Source: Actinomycetota bacterium
Lineage (GTDB): Bacteria > Actinomycetota > Actinomycetes > Actinomycetales > Microbacteriaceae
Assembly: GCA_018268515.1 (NCBI GenBank)
Contig: JAFDWK010000051.1
Location: 1-44,690, forward strand
DNA length: 44,690 bases
Direction of reading: 5' to 3'
Under the pieces are notes generated by a model, which saw only the letters and a program-made list of their open reading frames with translations, was not told the DNA's origin and did no database searches. Shown piece by piece: positions 2,816-13,414 of this stretch. Every line of letters starts with the position of its first letter. Within the stretch, counting starts at the first letter, position 1. Made by a program: the position numbers and the translations under genes.

Positions 2816-4075
2816 ATGGACGCGCAGTATCATCGCCGCATCGTCGATGAGGAACTCGACGAGCTCTTCCCCGGTCTCGCTGCGATCGCGCTGGACGGCG
2901 CGAAGGGCGTGGGCAAGACCACGACAGCCGTGCAGCGAGCCTCGAGCACGGTGAATCTGGACGATCCTCTCATCCAGCAGGTGATCGGCGCGGATCCTGC
3001 TGGCATCCTTCGCCTTCCGCGTCCTTTGCTCATCGACGAGTGGCAACGTGTGCCGGCAGTTTGGGACGTCGTGCGCCGCGCCGTCGACTCCGATCGTTCG
3101 GGGCAGCAGTTCCTGCTCACCGGCAGTGCCACTCCGCGCCCCGGCGCGACGGCACACTCCGGGGCAGGCAGGATCGTCCGTCTGCACACGCGACCTCTCA
3201 CGCTCGCCGAACGAGGGTTCGCCGCATCGGTATCGCTGGCAGATCTGCTCGCAGGGGTTGCCCAGCTCTCCGGATCCACCCGTGCAACACTCGCCGACTA
3301 CGCGGACGAGATCGTGAGGTCGGGGCTTCCGGGCATCCGCACCCTCGCGCCGCGGCTGCGACGCGCACAGCTCGCCGGCTATGTCGAGAACATCGTCGAT
3401 CGCGACGTACCCGATGCAGGCATCTCCGTTCGCCGACCGCAGTCGCTGCTGTACTGGCTCCGCGCATACGCTGCCGCGTCGTCGACGACCACGACGTACA
3501 CGCGGATCCTCGACTCGGCGACCGCGGGCTTCTCCGACAAGCCCACCCGCAACACCACAGCCGCGTACCGCGACGCCCTCGAGCAACTGTGGATTCTGGA
3601 ACCGGTCCCCGCATGGATGCCCATCGGCGCCGAACTCGGCCGGCTTGCCCAGGCTCCGAAGCATCAGCTCTTCGATCCCGCGATCGCCGCCTCCCTTCTT
3701 GGGCTTACGGCAGAGTCGTTGACCCGCGGCGAGGGCGGGGGCGAGGGGCATGCGTTCGGAAATCTCTTCGAGTCGCTCGCGACCCTGTGCGCACGTGTCT
3801 ACGCCCAACGCAATGAGGCCATGGTCTCGCACTTCCGTGATCGCAACGGCGAACGCGAAGTGGATCTGATCGTGTCGAACCCGGACGGCTCATTCGTGGC
3901 GATGGAGGTGAAACTCGCCGGCACCGTGGACGATCGTGACGTGCGTCACCTGAAATGGCTCCGGGACCGGGTGGGTGACCAGTTGAGGGACGCGGTCGTC
4001 ATCAACACCGGCCCCGCCGCATATCGACGCCCGGACGGCATCGGAGTCGTGCCGCTGGCACTCCTCGCGCCGTGA
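2816..4075 (+). CDS. DUF4143-type AAA ATPase with nuclease-like C-terminus
   Basis: 419 aa. The N-terminal AAA domain has Walker A GAKGVGKT (residues 28-35), Walker B LLIDEWQ (71-77) and a sensor-like LTGSA (101-105). The C-terminal DUF4143 region ends with EVDLIV (348-353) and MEVKL (363-367), the acidic-acidic-ExK spacing of PD-(D/E)XK-like folds. Proteins of this family are widespread, often laterally transferred and mostly uncharacterised. A role in defence or DNA metabolism is inferred, not shown. It is preceded by three 23-bp repeats and a leaderless-type promoter, and is convergent with the small gene ending at 4104. A paralogue lies at 18328-19599 and a 3' relic at 505-573. Confidence 0.85.
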   Translation: MDAQYHRRIVDEELDELFPGLAAIALDGAKGVGKTTTAVQRASSTVNLDDPLIQQVIGADPAGILRLPRPLLIDEWQRVPAVWDVVRRAVDSDRSGQQFLLTGSATPRPGATAHSGAGRIVRLHTRPLTLAERGFAASVSLADLLAGVAQLSGSTRATLADYADEIVRSGLPGIRTLAPRLRRAQLAGYVENIVDRDVPDAGISVRRPQSLLYWLRAYAAASSTTTTYTRILDSATAGFSDKPTRNTTAAYRDALEQLWILEPVPAWMPIGAELGRLAQAPKHQLFDPAIAASLLGLTAESLTRGEGGGEGHAFGNLFESLATLCARVYAQRNEAMVSHFRDRNGEREVDLIVSNPDGSFVAMEVKLAGTVDDRDVRHLKWLRDRVGDQLRDAVVINTGPAAYRRPDGIGVVPLALLAP

Positions 4076-4866: not shown

Positions 4867-5904
4867 CTATTGCATCGGCCGGATCTGCTCCTCGATGAAC
4901 GCGATCTCATCGTCGCTGAGGCCGTACTTGGAGTAGTGCTGCTGATCGATCTCGGCGACGCTCTTCGTCCAGTCGATGTCTGAGTCGGCTGTGAAGTCCT
5001 GCAGCGGCACGTACTTCCACACTTTGGCGGGATTGTGCTGGGTGATCTTCAAGACGCCGAGAAGGGCTCGCGCGAACTTCGTCTTGATGTACTTCAGGCA
5101 AGCTTCCGCGTCGTCCTCGACCGGGAAACTCCCGATGGTGATGAAGGTCTGGGTCACCGCCACCCCGGGGCCGACGACCAGAGGAGACGACAGCACCTCA
5201 CCCAAATGACCAGACCCGTTCGCTGCTGGCACCACCACCTTGTACGCACTGAAGCTCGGGGGCCCCGACACGTAGTCGGAACGGATCAATCGCGTGTGAC
5301 GCTTGTTCCTGACCAGCCCCAGGACTTGGACGTACTCGTGTCCGTCGCCGGGGTTAGACGAGAAGAAGACAGACGAGAACTGATCAAACGCGTTCGTATT
5401 GATGAGCGCAGCATTGCCCTTCGGACGAAGCTCGCGGAGCGCGGGATGGTCGTCGTAGAGCTTCTCGGAGTATCGATACGAACGTGAACTTGTCATCGCA
5501 AGACTGGCGACAGAGGCGATGTGGAGCGCAACCACTCTGTGCAGGATGTCGTTGAGTTCCGGATACTTCGTGAAGGTGCCGATCGGATCTCCAGAGCGAT
5601 CCACGTCGCGGTAGGTCACGGCGATGCCGCCCTTGATATCCGTTCCCGGGAACAAGTCGCCGCTGTCGGGCACGTAGTACGGGACCGTCAAACGCGAATC
5701 CGCGAGCATCTTCTCGTTCCAGGCCTTCGGAGTGAAACCCGCGTTGAAGAGGAAGCGCGCCGGCGTGATGAGAACCGCCTTCTTCCCCACCTCGTACGCC
5801 GCGTCCATGAAGCGGTGATAGACCGGTGTATCGCGCGTCCCGGAACCTTGAGCCTCCTCCTGGTATGGAGGGTTCCCGATGACGACGTCGAACTTCTTGA
5901 CCAT
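4867..5904 (-). CDS. Eco57I-type adenine methyltransferase, catalytic half
   Basis: 345 aa. It begins almost at catalytic motif IV: DVVIGNPPYQEE, with NPPY at residues 11-14. The remainder resembles the target-recognition and C-terminal part of Eco57I-like N6-adenine methyltransferases. The AdoMet-binding motif I that must precede NPPY is absent here. It is found in the 216-aa protein at 9199-9849 and, in degenerate form, at the C-terminus of the helicase protein directly upstream. Spacing to that helicase is two bases (TGACCATG), implying translational coupling. The product is probably inactive alone and must pair with an N-terminal half. Confidence 0.8.
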   Translation of the reverse strand: MVKKFDVVIGNPPYQEEAQGSGTRDTPVYHRFMDAAYEVGKKAVLITPARFLFNAGFTPKAWNEKMLADSRLTVPYYVPDSGDLFPGTDIKGGIAVTYRDVDRSGDPIGTFTKYPELNDILHRVVALHIASVASLAMTSSRSYRYSEKLYDDHPALRELRPKGNAALINTNAFDQFSSVFFSSNPGDGHEYVQVLGLVRNKRHTRLIRSDYVSGPPSFSAYKVVVPAANGSGHLGEVLSSPLVVGPGVAVTQTFITIGSFPVEDDAEACLKYIKTKFARALLGVLKITQHNPAKVWKYVPLQDFTADSDIDWTKSVAEIDQQHYSKYGLSDDEIAFIEEQIRPMQ

Positions 5905-5906
5905 GG

Positions 5907-8900
5907 TCAGTTGCCCTCCTCGAGCATGTCGTCGAGCATCTGCGCGCGCTCAGCCGTTGTCATCGTGGCGAGGTTGCCCCACCGGTAGTGGCCGGACTCC
6001 TCCATCCATCGCTTACGCTCGTCGACACCACCCGAGACCGCTTCGATGGTGATGTCATGCAGAATCTGGTTGTGGCTCATCTCGAAGATCTGCTTCGTGA
6101 GGACGTGCCGTAGGCGCTCCTGCGGATCAGGGATCGATGCCGCAAGCCCCGCATCGAGCCGACGTACCAGCTCCATGAGGAACAGCCCAGCCGTCGAGAA
6201 CAGATCCGCGAAGGTCTTCGTCGGATCCGTGAAGATCCCCGGATTCTCCTGCTCGAGCAGATCGACCATCTGCTTCACCACTGGCTGCGGAGTGAAGACC
6301 AGCGATGACTTCTGCCGCGGGATGTACGCGAAGATGTCCTCAGTGAGCGCCACATCGAAGTAGTCGGCGAGCTGCTCTTTCTTCGCGAGGAACTCCTGGA
6401 TCGCCTGATCAAACACGGATTCATCGAAGAGACCAGGGATGCGGGTGACGGTGCCGTCTTCTTCGGTGATGTCCTGGCCGTCGCGCAGAACGCGGAACTC
6501 CGCCTCACTGATTCCCGCAATCTCCTCGAAGACATCGTCGGGGGTGTGGTCGTCGAAGTTCGACAGGCGGATGCCTTTCGTCCCGTAGGCCATCAGGAAC
6601 ATCGGGATGGTCCGGGCGAAGCCCCGCAGATGCGAACGCGCATCATCCATCGCGGTGTTCGCGCGCTTCTGCTCCTTCTTGGTCTCTTCACGCATGACGA
6701 CCTCGGTCGTGATCGATGCAGTGCTCTCCTTGACGATCGCCATGATCTCCGCCGTGAATGCCGCGTCCTGCGTGGCCCTCTTCTCCTCGACGGCGTCGAT
6801 CTCTGCATCCGTCGTGGCCTGCTTATGCTCGTCGTCGAGGTGCCTCTTGGCGATCTCCTGATCGATGTACGCCCGCTCGACGGCCGCGGTGACGGTGGCT
6901 GCCGTGCGCTTCTCGTCGCGCTCGATCTGCGCCGCCGTGAGGTCGTACTCTTCCCGGAGCTTTTCGCGAGTCTCGCGCGCCTTTTGCGTCACGAGATCCG
7001 CCAGATCCTTCGCAGCCCTCTTCACCGGTGTGCTCGGGCTGACCACCGGGATCTCATCGATCTTCCACACAGGTGTTCCGAGCTCAGCGACCTTCGGGTT
7101 GATGACCGTGGCGACATCGATCTCGACGTTGCCCTGCGGATCCGTCACCGGAACTGGCTCCTCGATCGCGATGGCGGTGCCGGGCTTGACCTTCCCTTCC
7201 TTGGCTTCGGGCAGCTTCTCGAGGATCGACATCACATGCTCCGAGTATCGGAAGATCCCGGACACGTTGGCGAACAGCAGGTTCGAGAGGAAGCCTCGGC
7301 GGACGACCTCTTTCGCTTTGAAGATCTGCGGGAAGGTGAGGACCTGCGCGGCGTCGAGCTCGACCATCCGCCCCTCTGTGTCCTCGCCGATGACGGGGAA
7401 GAAATTGAGCAGAGTGCGGATGTTCTCCCGACGGACCTGGGGAGCACCCGAGGGATTCGGACGCAGGTTGTTCGCGAACTCATCGAAGATCGTGAGAGTG
7501 CGCTCGGGGGCGAAGTCGAAGATATATGCGTTCTTCTTCTGAAGCATGTGCTCACCCCGAAGGAAGGTGTACGGATTCTGCGCCCGGAACGCTGCCTGCA
7601 TGTAGAGCGCAGCCGAGGACAGATTCGAGAGCATGAGCACAGCCGTCCACTCCGGGACGGTGACGCCTGTCGTGAGTTGCCCCACCGACAGCGTGATGGT
7701 CTTCCCCCCGGCCTTCTCCGCCTCGGCGATCGCCGTCCTGACCTTGTCGAGCGACTTCATGGAGACGACGACATCGCTGTCATCCTCGCCGCGACCGTCG
7801 CCGGCGGCAAGGATGATCGTGTAGTCCTTGAAGACCTCGTGTTGTTTGAGCAACTTCTCAAGCGCCTTCGCGGATGCGACCCGGTTGAGCAGCCAGAAGG
7901 AGTGCCGGATCTCGTCGCGGAGTTCGGGCGTGGAGAAGGGATACTTCTCGTTCGTCGTCAGGCGGTCGAGGAACGTGACGACGTCGTCACGATGCTCGAA
8001 GACCCCGTTCTCCTTGGTCGCGAAGAACTCGGCGAGATCGAAGGCGAAGTCGATGTTCGCCTCATCCTCCTCGAGCGCGACGCCCTCCGCGAGCCGGTCT
8101 GTGATCATCCGCGAGAGCTGATACGTGAACATGTTCAGCGTTGGGAGTGCCTCGTACGGGTTCTCCAGCGCTGCGTCGGACCATTCGGCGCGCGCGGTCT
8201 GCTCGTCCTCATACGTCCAGTTGAAGATCTGTTCGGGGGAATCGAACTTGCCGGCGGCGAGCGCTTTGAACGGTGTGCCGGAGAGGTGCAACGTCCACCG
8301 GCGCGTGATCTTGTCGAACGCAATGTCGGTCTTGGTGGTGTCAACGCCTTCGTGCGCTTCGTCGATGACGAGCAGGTCCCATTCGAAGTCGGCGATGTGC
8401 TTGAGCTTCTTGTGGTGACCGCCGAAGTACTGGGAGCCCTTCAGATCCTGCAGAGACAGGAACTCGACGATGCGCGGATCCTCATGCTCGGCGGCATAGT
8501 GCGCCCACTGGTCGCGCGACATCGTCTCCCTGCTTGCCAGAGATGCAGAATCCGACACGAACACGTATGAGGTCTGGTGTCCGATGAAACGCGTGAAGTC
8601 GTCGAACCAGGAATTCGCGATGGCGGGCCGATTCGTCACGATGAGGACTTTGCGCGCATCGAGCCGGCGCATCAGATCGTAGGTCGTGAGCGTCTTGCCG
8701 AACCGGGGCTTCGCGTTCCAAAGAACCTCCGCATGCCCGGAGCCGAAGGCGTCGAGGGCCTGCGCGACGGCGGCCTTCTGCTCGGGGCGCAGCACGTAGT
8801 CTTCTTTGCCGCCCCGCTGCAGCTCAGCCCCATCCTGGCTGACGTACTCAAGGAAGTACTGCTTCGAAGTGAGCGGCATGTCGACGAAGCGGTGCCACTC

Positions 8901-9206
8901 GGTGCGCTTCGGCGTCGTGTCGGGATTGAACTCGCGCTCGACGCCGCGCTGCTTGAGGTACGCGTGGAAGTCCCTGTCGGTGAACCGTCCGCCGCTCTCG
9001 GTCTGGAAGAACGCGCGCAGCGCCCAGAGCTTCTCCTTGCGCACTGACAGCTGCGACGCCTGCTGCGCGATCCGGGCGTCAGGGCCGCCGGCCTGCTCCG
9101 TGTAGCCGATCTTCTCCCAGCCCTCGTACTTGGGGATGTCGGGGGTCGTCCACGAGTAGATGTACGGAATGACCTCACGGAACGTATCGATCGTCGGGTT
9201 AGCCAT
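5907..9206 (-). CDS. GIY-YIG-like / SF2 helicase / methyltransferase-half fusion
   Basis: 1099 aa. Residues 13-46 carry a GIY-YIG/T5orf172-like pattern (PYIYSW, then EKIGYT, then Arg45). The motor follows: LRPEQ (139-143), Walker A variant PRFGKT (167-172), DEAH (282-285) and LSGTPF (308-313). A charged coiled-coil-like stretch lies near residues 730-860. The last 130 residues look like the N-half of an Eco57I-type methyltransferase: VFTPQPVVKQMVDLL, DLFSTAGLF at 1001-1009 in place of motif I, IFEM at 1040-1043 and RWGNL. The first motif-I glycine is replaced by Thr, so AdoMet binding is uncertain. It overlaps the upstream gene by 8 bases and is coupled to the catalytic half downstream. The likely role is DNA translocation and cleavage in a restriction-like defence system. 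Confidence 0.8.
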   Translation of the reverse strand: MANPTIDTFREVIPYIYSWTTPDIPKYEGWEKIGYTEQAGGPDARIAQQASQLSVRKEKLWALRAFFQTESGGRFTDRDFHAYLKQRGVEREFNPDTTPKRTEWHRFVDMPLTSKQYFLEYVSQDGAELQRGGKEDYVLRPEQKAAVAQALDAFGSGHAEVLWNAKPRFGKTLTTYDLMRRLDARKVLIVTNRPAIANSWFDDFTRFIGHQTSYVFVSDSASLASRETMSRDQWAHYAAEHEDPRIVEFLSLQDLKGSQYFGGHHKKLKHIADFEWDLLVIDEAHEGVDTTKTDIAFDKITRRWTLHLSGTPFKALAAGKFDSPEQIFNWTYEDEQTARAEWSDAALENPYEALPTLNMFTYQLSRMITDRLAEGVALEEDEANIDFAFDLAEFFATKENGVFEHRDDVVTFLDRLTTNEKYPFSTPELRDEIRHSFWLLNRVASAKALEKLLKQHEVFKDYTIILAAGDGRGEDDSDVVVSMKSLDKVRTAIAEAEKAGGKTITLSVGQLTTGVTVPEWTAVLMLSNLSSAALYMQAAFRAQNPYTFLRGEHMLQKKNAYIFDFAPERTLTIFDEFANNLRPNPSGAPQVRRENIRTLLNFFPVIGEDTEGRMVELDAAQVLTFPQIFKAKEVVRRGFLSNLLFANVSGIFRYSEHVMSILEKLPEAKEGKVKPGTAIAIEEPVPVTDPQGNVEIDVATVINPKVAELGTPVWKIDEIPVVSPSTPVKRAAKDLADLVTQKARETREKLREEYDLTAAQIERDEKRTAATVTAAVERAYIDQEIAKRHLDDEHKQATTDAEIDAVEEKRATQDAAFTAEIMAIVKESTASITTEVVMREETKKEQKRANTAMDDARSHLRGFARTIPMFLMAYGTKGIRLSNFDDHTPDDVFEEIAGISEAEFRVLRDGQDITEEDGTVTRIPGLFDESVFDQAIQEFLAKKEQLADYFDVALTEDIFAYIPRQKSSLVFTPQPVVKQMVDLLEQENPGIFTDPTKTFADLFSTAGLFLMELVRRLDAGLAASIPDPQERLRHVLTKQIFEMSHNQILHDITIEAVSGGVDERKRWMEESGHYRWGNLATMTTAERAQMLDDMLEEGN

Positions 9207-9849
9207 CAGCCCTCACTTCTTTGTGGACGTGGTCGATACGACACACGGCGTACGTGTCGTAGTCGGTGAAGTCGAAAGCAGCGGTGCCGGCCGACCGACG
9301 CAGCGAGGCGAGGGGGAACGCGACGCGGCGCACCATCCCCGGCTCATTGAGTACGCGCTGCCACCACGAGAACTGGATCTCTTCGCCGTGGGCATCGAGC
9401 CCCGTCAGCGTGTTACCGCAGATGATGTTGCGCGTTACGAGCGTGGACGCCGAGCGGCGGAGATTGGTCCGGGGGCCGCAGGCATTCCCCGCGCGTTCAT
9501 GGAATGCGATGAACTCTGCAAGGAGTGCCCGCTGAGCAGCGTCGTGGTTGTCGGCGAGCAGTTCCACCGCGTAAACGGACGCAAGCGCGAATAGCGATTC
9601 GACCGGCCATACGGAGGGCTGGTAGCGCTTCTCGATCGCGTGAAGCTTGCGCTGAAGGATCGCGACGACGAAGTTGCCATCGCCAGCGGCCGGCTCGAAG
9701 AAGGTCTTGTCGACGAAGTTGGGACCGGTCTCAAGCTCAGGACGCACGAGGTCGAGCATCTGATTGACCATGTGCCGCGGGGTAAACACCTCACCGTGCG
9801 CCTTCACCCGGTGACGCGACTTGATGAGCCGCTCGTCCGCCATCGCCAC
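9199..9849 (-). CDS. N6-adenine methyltransferase, AdoMet-binding half
   Basis: 216 aa. It has GEVFTP (19-24), typical of the start of Eco57I-type and type ISP methyltransferases, motif I as EPAAGDGNF (52-60), motif II YAVEL (93-97) and NIICGNTL (141-148). The chain ends before NPPY. It is about a third the length of a complete enzyme, and the missing catalytic half is encoded two genes downstream. GAGGGG lies about 8 bases before the first of two adjacent in-frame ATGs (9849 and 9843). It is the first gene of a three-gene operon and divergent from an XRE regulator. Methylation of host sites, in complex with the 345-aa protein, is the expected function. Confidence 0.8.
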   Translation of the reverse strand: MAMADERLIKSRHRVKAHGEVFTPRHMVNQMLDLVRPELETGPNFVDKTFFEPAAGDGNFVVAILQRKLHAIEKRYQPSVWPVESLFALASVYAVELLADNHDAAQRALLAEFIAFHERAGNACGPRTNLRRSASTLVTRNIICGNTLTGLDAHGEEIQFSWWQRVLNEPGMVRRVAFPLASLRRSAGTAAFDFTDYDTYAVCRIDHVHKEVRADG

Positions 9850-9933: not shown

Positions 9934-10209
9934 GTGCCCCGAGTCCCGTCCGCTGCAGCCATCCACATCGGGGGCCGGATCCGGGAGACGCGCCTGGCGT
10001 CGTCGATGACGCAGGACGAACTCGCGGTCGGCGCCGGCATCGATTCGTCGAACATCCGCGCCTACGAGGCAGGGCGGGCTCTGCCGAACCTGCTGTCGCT
10101 GGTGCGCATCGCCGAGGCTCTACGGACGCCGGCTGGTCACTTCCTCGAGGAGGTCACCGTCGGCATGTTCCCGGCGTCACCGGATGACAGGCGACGGCGA
10201 GCGGGTTGA
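9934..10209 (+). CDS. XRE-family regulator, C-protein-like
   Basis: 91 aa with a GTG start. A helix-turn-helix of the XRE/Cro class spans about residues 15-70: IRETRLASSMTQDELAVGAG followed by SSNIRAYEAG and LLSLVRIAEAL. Size and layout match control proteins that time endonuclease against methylase expression in restriction-modification systems. It is divergent from the methyltransferase/helicase operon across an 84-base gap with a nested palindrome, which suggests autoregulation and control of that operon. A GAGAG run lies immediately before the GTG, so the exact start is not certain. Confidence 0.75.
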   Translation: MPRVPSAAAIHIGGRIRETRLASSMTQDELAVGAGIDSSNIRAYEAGRALPNLLSLVRIAEALRTPAGHFLEEVTVGMFPASPDDRRRRAG

Positions 10210-10926: not shown

Positions 10927-13266
10927 TCACTCGACCTCGTCGACCTTGCCCTTCCGCCCCTTCTCGAACTCCGCGAACTGTGCCCGCAGCGCATCGAGAC
11001 CCGCCGGGTCGATCGACCATCGCCCTCCGGATCCGGGTTGCTCCTCCTTCGGAGTGATGCTGCGCAAGAACCGGCGAATGCTGCGGCCGTCGACGCCGAG
11101 TAACACTGCCAGCGCGGCCGGGGAGATGCCGCCTTCATCGGCCTCCTCCTCCGCTGAGTCGTCTTCGCCCATGCTCGCGGTGTACGCATCGCGGATCTCG
11201 GACAACCGCTGACCCGTTGTCGCCAGGCTCCAGTACCACCAGCCGTTGACGCTCCGGCTCGCAATCTCCCGGCCCGCTCCGGAAGGCGTGTCGTATGCGA
11301 CCTCGTCCAGGAACACTCGGCCGTCCTGAGCGATATCCGCCACGCGTCCCTCATGACCCGACAGCGTGAAGACGATCCGCGTCGCCGGTTCGATCCATCC
11401 CGACGAGACGAGCTGGGCCAGGTCTACGGTCGTGCTCGCGGTGACCGCTGCCGGAACCAGCTGCCCGACGTGCCCCTCGGGTGCAGGCCAGATCGCGAGG
11501 ATCTGCTCGATCAGGGCCTCGGTACGATCAGCGATCTGCTGTTCATCCCAGGCGCCCTCTCCCGATGCCGCCAGCGCATCGTTCGTGATCAGCACGTCGT
11601 TGAATCGACGGAAGTGTTCGCTCTTGGCGGCCCATGTACCGTTCGAGACCTTGCTGTTCAACGATTGCGTGACCAGCGTGAGGTTCCCCAGTCTCTGCAC
11701 GATCTGGTCCCGCTCGATCGCCTGAACCTCGGTGAGCGGATCCGTCCAATGCGCACGCCAAGTCTGCGGCATGAGGTGCTCGATCGTGCCCCGCTCCCGC
11801 ACGATCGGTCCCATCGCCAGTGGACGGTCACCGGGATACCCTCGACGCGCGTCTTCGAGCGCCTCCAGCACCATTCGCACTCGTGCACGCCGGTAGCCGC
11901 CATAGAAGTTCGCCGTCGCCAAGACGGCGCGAACTTCAGCGTCGCCCGGCCAGAAAGTCACTGTCGTGTGGTTCTCCGTCAGGTACTGCTGGAGCGCATC
12001 CGCGACGCCGTCCTTCGGCTGGCGGCTGAGGTGCTTCAGCAGGTCGACGAGAAATCGGTTCGATCCCTGCGATGGTGCCCGCACCAGCGCCCGCCGGACG
12101 AACCAGCTCTCGAGGATCTCGAGGATCCGGACCCGATCGCTGTCCGGGATCTCCGCCTGCTCGGACTCATCGAGCCAGATCAGCAACGGCCGCGCGACAT
12201 CGGAGTCCAGCGTTCCCACGCGGTAGTTAAAAAGCTCGGCACGGCTCAGACGACCGTCCTGACGCTCCGCGCCCTCGCTGAGTGAACGATAGCGATCCGC
12301 CGCTCGCTTGATCTGCGGCAGCAATGCGGAGACATCCTTGGCGACCGTGTTCACGTAGTGCTTGAACTGCGTGAAGACCTCGCGGATCGGGAAGTCATCG
12401 AGCGTCCGCGCTACGAGCCACTGCCACAGGAACAGCGATGCACGCGGGTTCTTCACGCGCCCGCTCGTGATCTCCTTCTCCCACCACGGCGTCTCGAAGT
12501 CCGCCCAGTTCGCCAGGTACGCCTGTTCGGCTTCCTTCTCCGGAATCTGCTGGAAGAGGAAGTTCTTGACGAGATCGGCCGCGGACAGAGGTGTACCTCG
12601 TGCGTTCAGCGTTTCGAAGATCGCTTGCGCGTCCTCGTTGGCGTCGAGGCTGATGCTGGCGATTTGCAGACGGTCCTTGATTGCAGGAACGAGCATCCAT
12701 GCGCGGTCCTCCGCGCTCGCGGGATCAGCATCCAGCCATCCCGCAATCTGCTCGGCGAAGAAGCGATGGCCGTCACGCATGCGGGATGCCGCGAGGCCGT
12801 CATAGTCCACGGGAACCGGCACCGACATCACCGTCGCGAATGCGTCTCGATCGCGGTTCGTGGGCCACACCTTGTAGCGGTCTTCGTCGCGACGCCAGCT
12901 GTTCTCCGGGTTCTCGATGAGGGGAAGGACCTGGCCCGCGAGGCGCGTGTATCCGCGACGCTCGAGCTCCGAGTGCAGCGCGTCGAGCAGCAGCTGCACG
13001 GTCGTCAAACGCTGCTGGCCATCGATCACGTTGGCCGCCGGAATGCTGCCGAGACCGGACGGCACCTGCTGCGTCACGATCGCACCGAGGAAGTGCGTGC
13101 CCGCCTCGTCGTGATTCGAGATGACTTCGACCAACCGCACGATGTCGTCCCACAGCGGTTGCCACTGCGTCTCCTTCGACCACACATACGGGCGTTGGAA
13201 CAGAGGAACCACAAGACGCGTCGGGTTGTAGAAGATCTCCTGAGGCGTGATGACGGTGGTCTTCAA
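10927..13266 (-). CDS. DUF262-DUF1524-RAMA protein (GmrSD-type restriction)
   Basis: About 779 aa from TTG at 13266, chosen because AGGGGG lies about 6 bases upstream and the protein then opens with KTTVITPQEIF, normal for the family; ATG at 13296 is an in-frame alternative. The DUF262 part has QRPYVW (24-29) and DGQQR (82-86). The DUF1524 HNH-like nuclease has EHLMPQ, and LGNLTLV follows. Residues about 614-695 form a RAMA-like domain (LVSSGWIEPAT, SGAGREIASRSVNGWWYWSL), a module found with restriction proteins and thought to read modified bases. The C-terminus is a small helical DNA-binding-like segment (LGVDGRSIRRFLR). DUF262/DUF1524 proteins act as type IV enzymes against modified phage DNA. 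Confidence 0.85.
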   Translation of the reverse strand: MKTTVITPQEIFYNPTRLVVPLFQRPYVWSKETQWQPLWDDIVRLVEVISNHDEAGTHFLGAIVTQQVPSGLGSIPAANVIDGQQRLTTVQLLLDALHSELERRGYTRLAGQVLPLIENPENSWRRDEDRYKVWPTNRDRDAFATVMSVPVPVDYDGLAASRMRDGHRFFAEQIAGWLDADPASAEDRAWMLVPAIKDRLQIASISLDANEDAQAIFETLNARGTPLSAADLVKNFLFQQIPEKEAEQAYLANWADFETPWWEKEITSGRVKNPRASLFLWQWLVARTLDDFPIREVFTQFKHYVNTVAKDVSALLPQIKRAADRYRSLSEGAERQDGRLSRAELFNYRVGTLDSDVARPLLIWLDESEQAEIPDSDRVRILEILESWFVRRALVRAPSQGSNRFLVDLLKHLSRQPKDGVADALQQYLTENHTTVTFWPGDAEVRAVLATANFYGGYRRARVRMVLEALEDARRGYPGDRPLAMGPIVRERGTIEHLMPQTWRAHWTDPLTEVQAIERDQIVQRLGNLTLVTQSLNSKVSNGTWAAKSEHFRRFNDVLITNDALAASGEGAWDEQQIADRTEALIEQILAIWPAPEGHVGQLVPAAVTASTTVDLAQLVSSGWIEPATRIVFTLSGHEGRVADIAQDGRVFLDEVAYDTPSGAGREIASRSVNGWWYWSLATTGQRLSEIRDAYTASMGEDDSAEEEADEGGISPAALAVLLGVDGRSIRRFLRSITPKEEQPGSGGRWSIDPAGLDALRAQFAEFEKGRKGKVDEVE

Positions 13267-13414
13267 AGTGCGTTCCCCCTGCGTGAGCGGATCCACCGGG
13301 CAATATCACCGGTGTCATCCACCCTGGCACACGTGCGAGCCGCTCCGACGTCGGCGCCCAGTGCTACGTTGCCCGGACGGGCGTACGAAGCACTCGCCGG
13401 GAAGGACGAACGCC

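Follow-up and report, generated by a model that had tools for sequence, protein, structure and literature searches.

The window analysed here is a 44,690 nt stretch of an Actinomycetota genome (Microbacteriaceae; contig JAFDWK010000051.1). On its minus strand, from position 9849 to 4867, it carries three co-directional genes that appear to encode a split adenine methyltransferase joined to a nuclease-translocase. We call them M1, Hel-N2 and Cat, in that order: a protein with the motifs of an S-adenosylmethionine (AdoMet)-binding half; a GIY-YIG-like nuclease and helicase/translocase with a second, altered N-terminal half, N2, near its C-terminus; and a catalytic and target-recognition half. 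The open reading frames follow one another without gaps, M1 and Hel-N2 overlapping by 8 bp and the TGA of Hel-N2 lying 2 nt ahead of the ATG of Cat. An earlier note, made from the letters of the window, had described a methylase split over three genes, and its frames and motifs were recovered at the same positions. Its wider idea, of one catalytic half paired with two AdoMet-binding halves, gains partial support from the comparative anatomy given below, in which only one of the two halves, M1, appears to keep an intact AdoMet motif I.

Motif names are used here as we take them to apply to M1 and Cat (X, I, II, III, IV) and, likewise presumptively, to the helicase (Table 1). M1 has VYAVELLADN at motif II and lacks NPPY, and alone it draws only weak Pfam matches. 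The start of Cat carries MVKKFDVVIGNPPY, and Cat lacks motif I; it matches the Pfam Eco57I methylase family (PF07669; E=1.4e-14, 55.0 bits against a gathering cut-off of 25.3) and the PADLOC model MTase_II PDLC03375 (E=9.8e-31). Motifs I and IV never stand together on any of the three chains. The nuclease residues Y17, K32-I33-G34 and R45 are invariant in 10 of 10 hand-chosen Hel sequences, whose N-termini match T5orf172 (6/10) or MUG113 (4/10) in Pfam with a best E of 5.5e-7; Hel-N2 of the window itself matches MUG113 only, at E=0.0046, below the cut-off. Our Hel profile, seeded in part with the window protein, covers residues 1-689 of Hel-N2, and the C-terminal stretch of that protein reads VFTP...FADLFSTAGLFL...RWGNL.

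Table 1. Coordinates of the split methylase operon and its motifs within the window
Feature	Position	Strand	Basis or remark
M1, AdoMet-binding half, 216 aa, motifs X, I, II, III	9199..9849	-	stops ahead of motif IV
M1 motif X, GEVFTP	9778..9795	-	sequence
M1 motif I, FFEPAAGDGNF	9670..9702	-	sequence
M1 motif III, NIICGNTL	9406..9429	-	sequence
Hel-N2, GIY-YIG-like nuclease, helicase/translocase and second N-half, 1099 aa	5907..9206	-	
GIY-YIG-like nuclease domain (IYSW...GWEKIGYT...R)	8862..9206	-	conserved residues; Pfam GIY-YIG families
Helicase/translocase (NAKPRFGKT, DEAH, SGTP, QAAFRAQ)	7137..8819	-	Pfam ResIII, E=9.7e-15
Linker joining the helicase to N2; charged and helix-like, as judged by eye alone	6342..7136	-	position; nothing in Pfam at E up to 1
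N2, putative pseudo-AdoMet N-half near the Hel-N2 C-terminus, residues 956-1092	5931..6341	-	N2 profile (seeded in part with the window protein); hhalign to M1
N2 altered motif I, FADLFSTAGLFL, T at the position of the first AdoMet glycine	6177..6212	-	sequence
Cat, catalytic and target-recognition half, 345 aa, motif IV onwards	4867..5904	-	Pfam Eco57I
Cat motif IV, NPPY	5863..5874	-	sequence; invariant across a 13-row alignment

The three genes almost certainly make up a restriction-modification system of the DrdVI type, with split adenine methylation and its parts spread over three genes. DrdVI, from plasmid pDrdVI of Deinococcus wulumuqiensis NEB 479, comprises M1 (212 aa), M2 (539 aa, equivalent to N2 plus Cat) and a GIY-YIG helicase of about 850 aa; it is listed (M1.DrdVI, M2.DrdVI, DrdVI) under 6mA, IIG and GCAGCC, and its cloned M1-2 genes give N6-methyladenine, m6A (PMC6430315). 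Window and DrdVI are 39.9% identical in M1 (over residues 8-163), 33.7% in N2 (957-1048, E=2e-12), 27.0% in Cat (4-345, E=9e-35) and 31.4% in the GIY-YIG/helicase region (1-644), and N2 of DrdVI likewise lacks the motif I glycine (DPCTKSGVFL). The layouts differ: DrdVI joins N2 to Cat and has its nuclease-helicase as a separate protein, whereas the window carries N2 on the nuclease-helicase and leaves Cat free. The window accordingly has the small separate protein with motif I and without NPPY that marks the type; the NPPY and recognition protein homologous to M2.DrdVI, distributed over two chains; and, in the same operon, a fused translocase and GIY-YIG nuclease, the latter with a Pfam score below cut-off. 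From family membership the window system is predicted to place m6A at a short asymmetric site and to restrict unmodified DNA.

Passages in the literature point to further members. One describes MaeIV (M1-M2.MaeIV) of Methanococcus aeolicus, with m6A at GCACY, as a split methylase similar to DrdVI whose cloned pair methylates in E. coli (PMC10113651); the methylation-deficient E. coli strain ER2796 served for both DrdVI and MaeIV. Another lists Btr188ORF1790/1760 of Bibersteinia trehalosi as similar to M1.DrdVI and M2.DrdVI, accompanied by a DrdVI-like GIY-YIG gene, calls the pair fragmented and inactive, and terms the DrdVI enzyme 'a fused translocase and REase' (PMC4996451).

Similarity to Cat, and for some loci to M1-Cat as well, was the basis on which relatives were collected, so every count refers to loci that have a Cat. 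A scan of genome contigs gave at least 587 stretches and 416 relatives, with the best 80 kept; viral scans kept 2 of 7 stretches, 80 of 93 relatives and 16 of 16 relatives; and larger regions were fetched for 40 of the 55 non-window genomes that had a Cat match in the genus, relative and phylum scans. The window and early loci served as seeds for the profiles. The final count excludes the short loci L001 and L187-L247, and the broken Cat of L267 falls below the Cat threshold. From 185 loci with a strong Cat, removal of near-identical Cat sequences (97% or more) left 168, of which 145 are complete, with all four modules. These modules co-occur near-obligately: M1, Hel and N2 are all present in 100 of 101 non-redundant loci that extend more than 4.5 kb to both sides of Cat within the fetched locus, the exception being the viral contig L121. 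The 67 loci near an end include 45 complete ones and 22 without one or more modules.

N2, the module that the window has near the C-terminus of its helicase protein, recurs in 140 non-redundant loci, window included. The M1 and N2 families align over motifs X to I (hhalign probability 97.6%, E=2.6e-12, 58 columns) and on this evidence are homologous across those two motifs, as the earlier note had supposed in describing a second, degenerate N-half on the helicase protein. In the M1a class of M1, motif I reads EPxxGxG in all 119 domains that cover it, the motif II acid (D or E) is present in 120/120, and motif III has N in 119/119 and G in 118/119. N2 domains lack the first glycine of motif I in 140/140 cases and have K (119) or T (21) in its place, the T forms all coming from free-Cat loci of the window's clade. 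N2 retains motif X (T in 138/140) and the last motif I glycine (140/140). At its motif II (QIFEMS in the window) it has A, G or S in 138 and an acid in 0/140, motif II having been placed by pattern and unconfirmed, with hhalign confident for X to I only and a longer alignment using another register. Without that first motif I glycine (0/140), and with no acid at that unconfirmed placement, N2 lacks the marks of an AdoMet methyltransferase N-half.

Lysine in place of the motif I glycine recurs in the divergent classes N2b (14/14) and N2c (2/2, from a profile built on L037 and L063, the same two loci that it then counts). N2 is therefore read here, from its motifs, as a conserved pseudo-AdoMet half with its own signature at motif I rather than a product of random decay, and it would not bind AdoMet; 'degenerate' fits the altered motif I and understates the conserved signature that replaces it. 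M1 has a divergent class too: M1b shows E-[ILV]-[TA]-[CA]-G-E-A-P in 33/33 domains that cover the motif, the second GxG glycine being replaced. This M1b (about 300 aa, CGEAP motif) stands in for M1a in L013, L008, L019 and others and is often fused to Cat; that of L013 matches nothing in Pfam at E up to 0.01.

Cat changes partners among relatives. Of the 145 complete loci, 92 have it on one chain with N2, 19 have it on one chain with M1 and 34 have it free; these 34 led us to reject the idea that Cat always needs an N-half in cis. The commonest layout is M1 / N2-Cat / Hel (68), followed by the window's M1 / Hel-N2 / Cat (24), M1-Cat / Hel-N2 (18), M1 / Hel-N2-Cat (12), Hel-N2-Cat / M1 (7), M1 / Cat / Hel-N2 (6) and others (10). 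On a FastTree phylogeny of the 145 Cat sequences the fewest state changes is 19, against a mean of 48 when states are shuffled, so a state also tends to persist within a lineage; when well supported branches alone are counted, at least 7 changes are needed for the N2-fused state, 5 for the free state and 5 for the M1-fused state. One M1a-Cat fusion occurs in L025, and M1b-Cat fusions are also present.

A profile of M1-Cat, made from two single-chain proteins, matches the N2-Cat profile over its full length (420 columns, E=1.1e-74), M1 onto N2 and Cat onto Cat, indicating that both N-halves hold the same place ahead of NPPY. Among Pfam families, N6_Mtase covers N2 plus Cat of L026 and MmeI_Mtase covers M1 up to NPPY of L121. 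Matches to solved methylases point the same way but are weak: M1-Cat against BseCI has an overall E of 1e-4 with neither stretch significant alone, and N2-Cat matches 7lo5 (E=2.4e-4) and HsdM 2okc (E=0.041); solved-structure searches by single sequence found no methyltransferase. One Cat with two homologous N-halves, one free and one on the nuclease/helicase, is thus what the earlier note foresaw, and fusion of Cat to either half in relatives agrees with it; its description of both halves as AdoMet-binding is not supported, the helicase-borne half lacking the motif I glycine and, as placed, the motif II acid in 140/140. That note had also held that Cat homologues with an AdoMet half of their own would count against the pairing. 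Such homologues exist in the literal sense as the M1-Cat fusions, yet these support the pairing.

Our preferred explanation has three steps, and we give the whole of it, on a DrdVI-type system, a probability of roughly 0.6. In the first step M1 would bring motifs X, I, II and III, which make the AdoMet pocket, and Cat would bring NPPY and target recognition, M1 plus Cat very probably forming the m6A modification methylase. Of the two pairs published as methylating, DrdVI and MaeIV, that of DrdVI has an M2 that we read as N2-Cat; methylation by M1 plus M2 of DrdVI should use the pocket of M1, because N2 of DrdVI also lacks the motif I glycine. In the second step N2, an M1 homologue that would keep the place of an N-half while having lost the AdoMet-binding residues, would complete the same Cat into a non-methylating site reader and steer the translocase-nuclease to unmodified sites; such a role for N2 in restriction seems to us reasonably probable. 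In the third, one recognition half would serve both methylation and restriction, the outcome depending on which N-half it carries. One Cat would then be shared between two complexes. That M1 and N2 replace each other exclusively on Cat is a tentative suggestion, in line with their common alignment position, the M1-Cat fusions and the viral M1-Cat chains. Equally tentative is the picture as a whole, in which the choice to mark or to cut would be made by swapping the N-half, a pseudo-AdoMet half on the translocase-nuclease could turn Cat into a methylation reader that triggers restriction, and phages might protect themselves with the version that has the AdoMet half, as a methylase of one chain.

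The main ground for the second step comes from viruses. On two contigs M1 and Cat form a single chain, of 511-523 aa in L121, which is without Hel and N2, and of 520 aa in L116 (positions 317-1879, with the contig end cutting just upstream). No helicase relative was found in the whole L121 and L116 records (35 and 20 kb) with the DrdVI helicase as query, which in L102 gives E=0, and the N2 profile gives only weak matches there, inside the M1-Cat frame (E=7.9e-7 and 2.1e-5). The neighbours of the M1-Cat gene in L116 include genes for a primase-helicase and a gp2.5-like protein and an RNA polymerase gene (phrog_414, E=3e-224) that we read as T7-like; standing immediately upstream of the phage RNA polymerase gene region, it is likely an early anti-restriction methylase. 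Complete module sets also occur on viral contigs, for example L101 and L102. It appears that a virus needing just protective methylation keeps M1-Cat and drops N2 and the helicase, which ties N2 to restriction.

This explanation must be tempered by several observations that weigh against it. The link between N2 and restriction depends on two viral contigs that may be fragments, L116 being cut just upstream. N2 stays fused to Cat in the methylating DrdVI pair, so N2 need not leave for methylation to proceed. The loss of AdoMet binding by N2 is judged from motifs alone, and its motif II was placed by pattern at a point where the longer hhalign alignment shifts register. All loci were picked by similarity to Cat. 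A passage on a new class of split methyltransferases with 2 or 3 subunits mentions evidence for partial activity with one subunit (PMC4335053); if this concerns the DrdVI-type family, it weakens the first step. Finally, neither M1-Cat nor N2-Cat has a coevolution signal beyond neighbour-swap controls (103 loci), and in a first run (107 loci) high scores made up a larger share for M1-N2 than for either of them.

Over the 103 loci the normalised top coevolution scores of M1-N2, M1-Cat, N2-Cat and N2-Hel all fall within their five neighbour-swap controls, and M1-Hel (helicase N-terminus) is the only pair above all five, with a normalised top-20 mean of 6.08 against 4.79-5.14; the spread of raw scores exceeds the controls for all five pairs. 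The M1-N2 excess of high scores in the first run could reflect M1 touching N2 in a ternary complex, or shared ancestry.

Such a complex is the best surviving alternative. In it M1, N2 and Cat would act together as one holoenzyme, N2-Cat being a pseudo-methyltransferase to which M1 docks as AdoMet donor with no exchange of halves, comparable to METTL3-METTL14, a catalytic/pseudo-catalytic pair. N2 and Cat do share a chain in 92 of the 145 complete loci, the first coevolution run leans the same way, and DrdVI, itself of the N2-Cat layout, yields m6A from its cloned M1-2 genes (PMC6430315). We nevertheless consider a ternary enzyme possible rather than probable. The M1-N2 excess does not rise above the neighbour-swap controls; the 19 M1-Cat fusions with N2 on another chain, and the viral M1-Cat chains without N2, suggest that N2 is dispensable; and M1 and N2, which align on the same segment before NPPY, should not both complete one Rossmann sheet in the usual way.

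A second alternative makes N2 the leftover AdoMet half of a single-chain ancestor, retained as a scaffold for the helicase C-terminus after M1 took over AdoMet, with no part in the choice between marking and cutting. The lost motif I glycine and the retained motif X would suit such a history. Variable decay would then be expected, yet lysine occupies the position in 119/140 N2 domains and throughout the divergent N2b and N2c classes, and N2 is present in 100 of the 101 well-flanked loci, all of which makes a mere relic unlikely. That M1 and the restriction genes are two independent enzymes, M1 deriving from another methylase and standing there by chance, is suggested by its weak Pfam matches when taken alone and is highly improbable given that it lacks NPPY, occurs in 101/101 well-flanked loci and shares a chain with Cat in 19/145.

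It remains to consider whether the three-gene layout is a sequencing error, a frameshift or a decayed single-chain enzyme, as the start of Cat 2 nt past the preceding stop and the many relatives with fused parts might suggest; this has next to nothing left in its favour, since the identical layout recurs in 24 of 145 complete loci, 12 of them in other genomes of the window's genus. We therefore rejected the sequencing frameshift that the earlier note had left as a way for its reading to fail. The Cat tree puts the window within a well supported group of 21 rows, every one of them a free Cat. Of the 24 loci with the window's layout, 15 have an M1/Hel overlap of 8 nt. Their longest Cat frame opens 1-2 nt downstream of the Hel-N2 stop in 10 loci; elsewhere the two overlap, by 1-4 nt (6 loci) or by 32-109 nt (8 loci). 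Frames of the helicase, M1 or Cat that are broken do occur, in L060, L017, L122, L263 and L267, which are probably decayed systems. Of 366 genomes of the genus, 40 have a Cat relative, as do 7 of 98 relatives and 16 of 396 genomes of the phylum, a distribution as patchy as that of defence genes.

Other known systems match in part. The PADLOC matches of the window genes are to MTase_I, MTase_II and IIG models. Among these, REase_MTase_IIG PDLC03626, a single chain of 1359 positions, matches both Hel-N2 (E=1.8e-23) and Cat (E=6.5e-25), and M1 has no match to it at E up to 1. Type ISP enzymes (LlaGI, LlaBIII) have the order nuclease, translocase, methyltransferase and recognition on one chain, with an Mrr-type nuclease. 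They use one N-half for both jobs and have no separate M1, whereas the window has M1 and a GIY-YIG-like nuclease; Type ISP membership was rejected because the window system is three genes and not one polypeptide. MmeI-like Type IIG membership was rejected since motifs I and IV are never on one chain. In OspHL35III-type systems a methylase/specificity protein goes with a translocase and a GIY-YIG endonuclease that are separate (PMC4752239); their methylase is an MmeI-like single chain, and the passage that describes them does not mention a second N-half. No Type I HsdS family was found in a Pfam scan of the three genes and six neighbours, the rest of the window being unscanned, and BREX, DISARM and other PADLOC systems gave no strong marker match (mad2 at E=8.6e-5 and Nhi at E=0.024, both weak and partial).

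The operon is flanked by an AAA_14/DUF4143 ATPase gene (2816-4075, plus strand) and a gene for a small helix-turn-helix protein (9934-10209, plus strand). Adjoining the split methylase lies a Type IV-like GmrSD gene (10927-13296, minus strand; GmrSD_N E=1e-34, GmrSD_C E=4.7e-22) whose product has a C-terminal RAMA domain, and the two together probably form a defence island. Elsewhere, L005 is an Enterococcus faecium resistance plasmid with an M1 / Hel-N2-Cat system close to an erm gene. The viral locus L134 (2646-8491) encodes a Hel-N2(KSG)-Cat protein, two more Cat proteins without an N-half and a single M1 of 141 aa, so that one AdoMet half may serve three recognition halves. The distant viral locus L147 (3311-10349), like L141 and L150, has N-half plus Cat proteins with an intact motif I of their own; in L147 five such proteins carry DPAIGGGQF, and there is an extra free M1-like protein (DNSCGDGQF).

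The DrdVI-type kind of split methylase is published. Our literature search, with subscription papers and REBASE outside its reach, found no description of the second N-half, its signature or the changing fusions. The parts are variously annotated as N-6 methylase, hypothetical protein, Eco57I methylase and helicase, and the division into halves explains why they carry such different labels. An enzyme that has one recognition part for both methylating and cutting is in conflict, for that domain must at times mark and at other times trigger cutting. The DrdVI-type family appears to split this decision over two homologous halves, one with and one without an AdoMet site, which brings it within reach of experiments on small proteins that can be separated. 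The arrangement also suggests how new specificities could arise naturally, as one M1 may serve several catalytic halves, for which L134 is the example.

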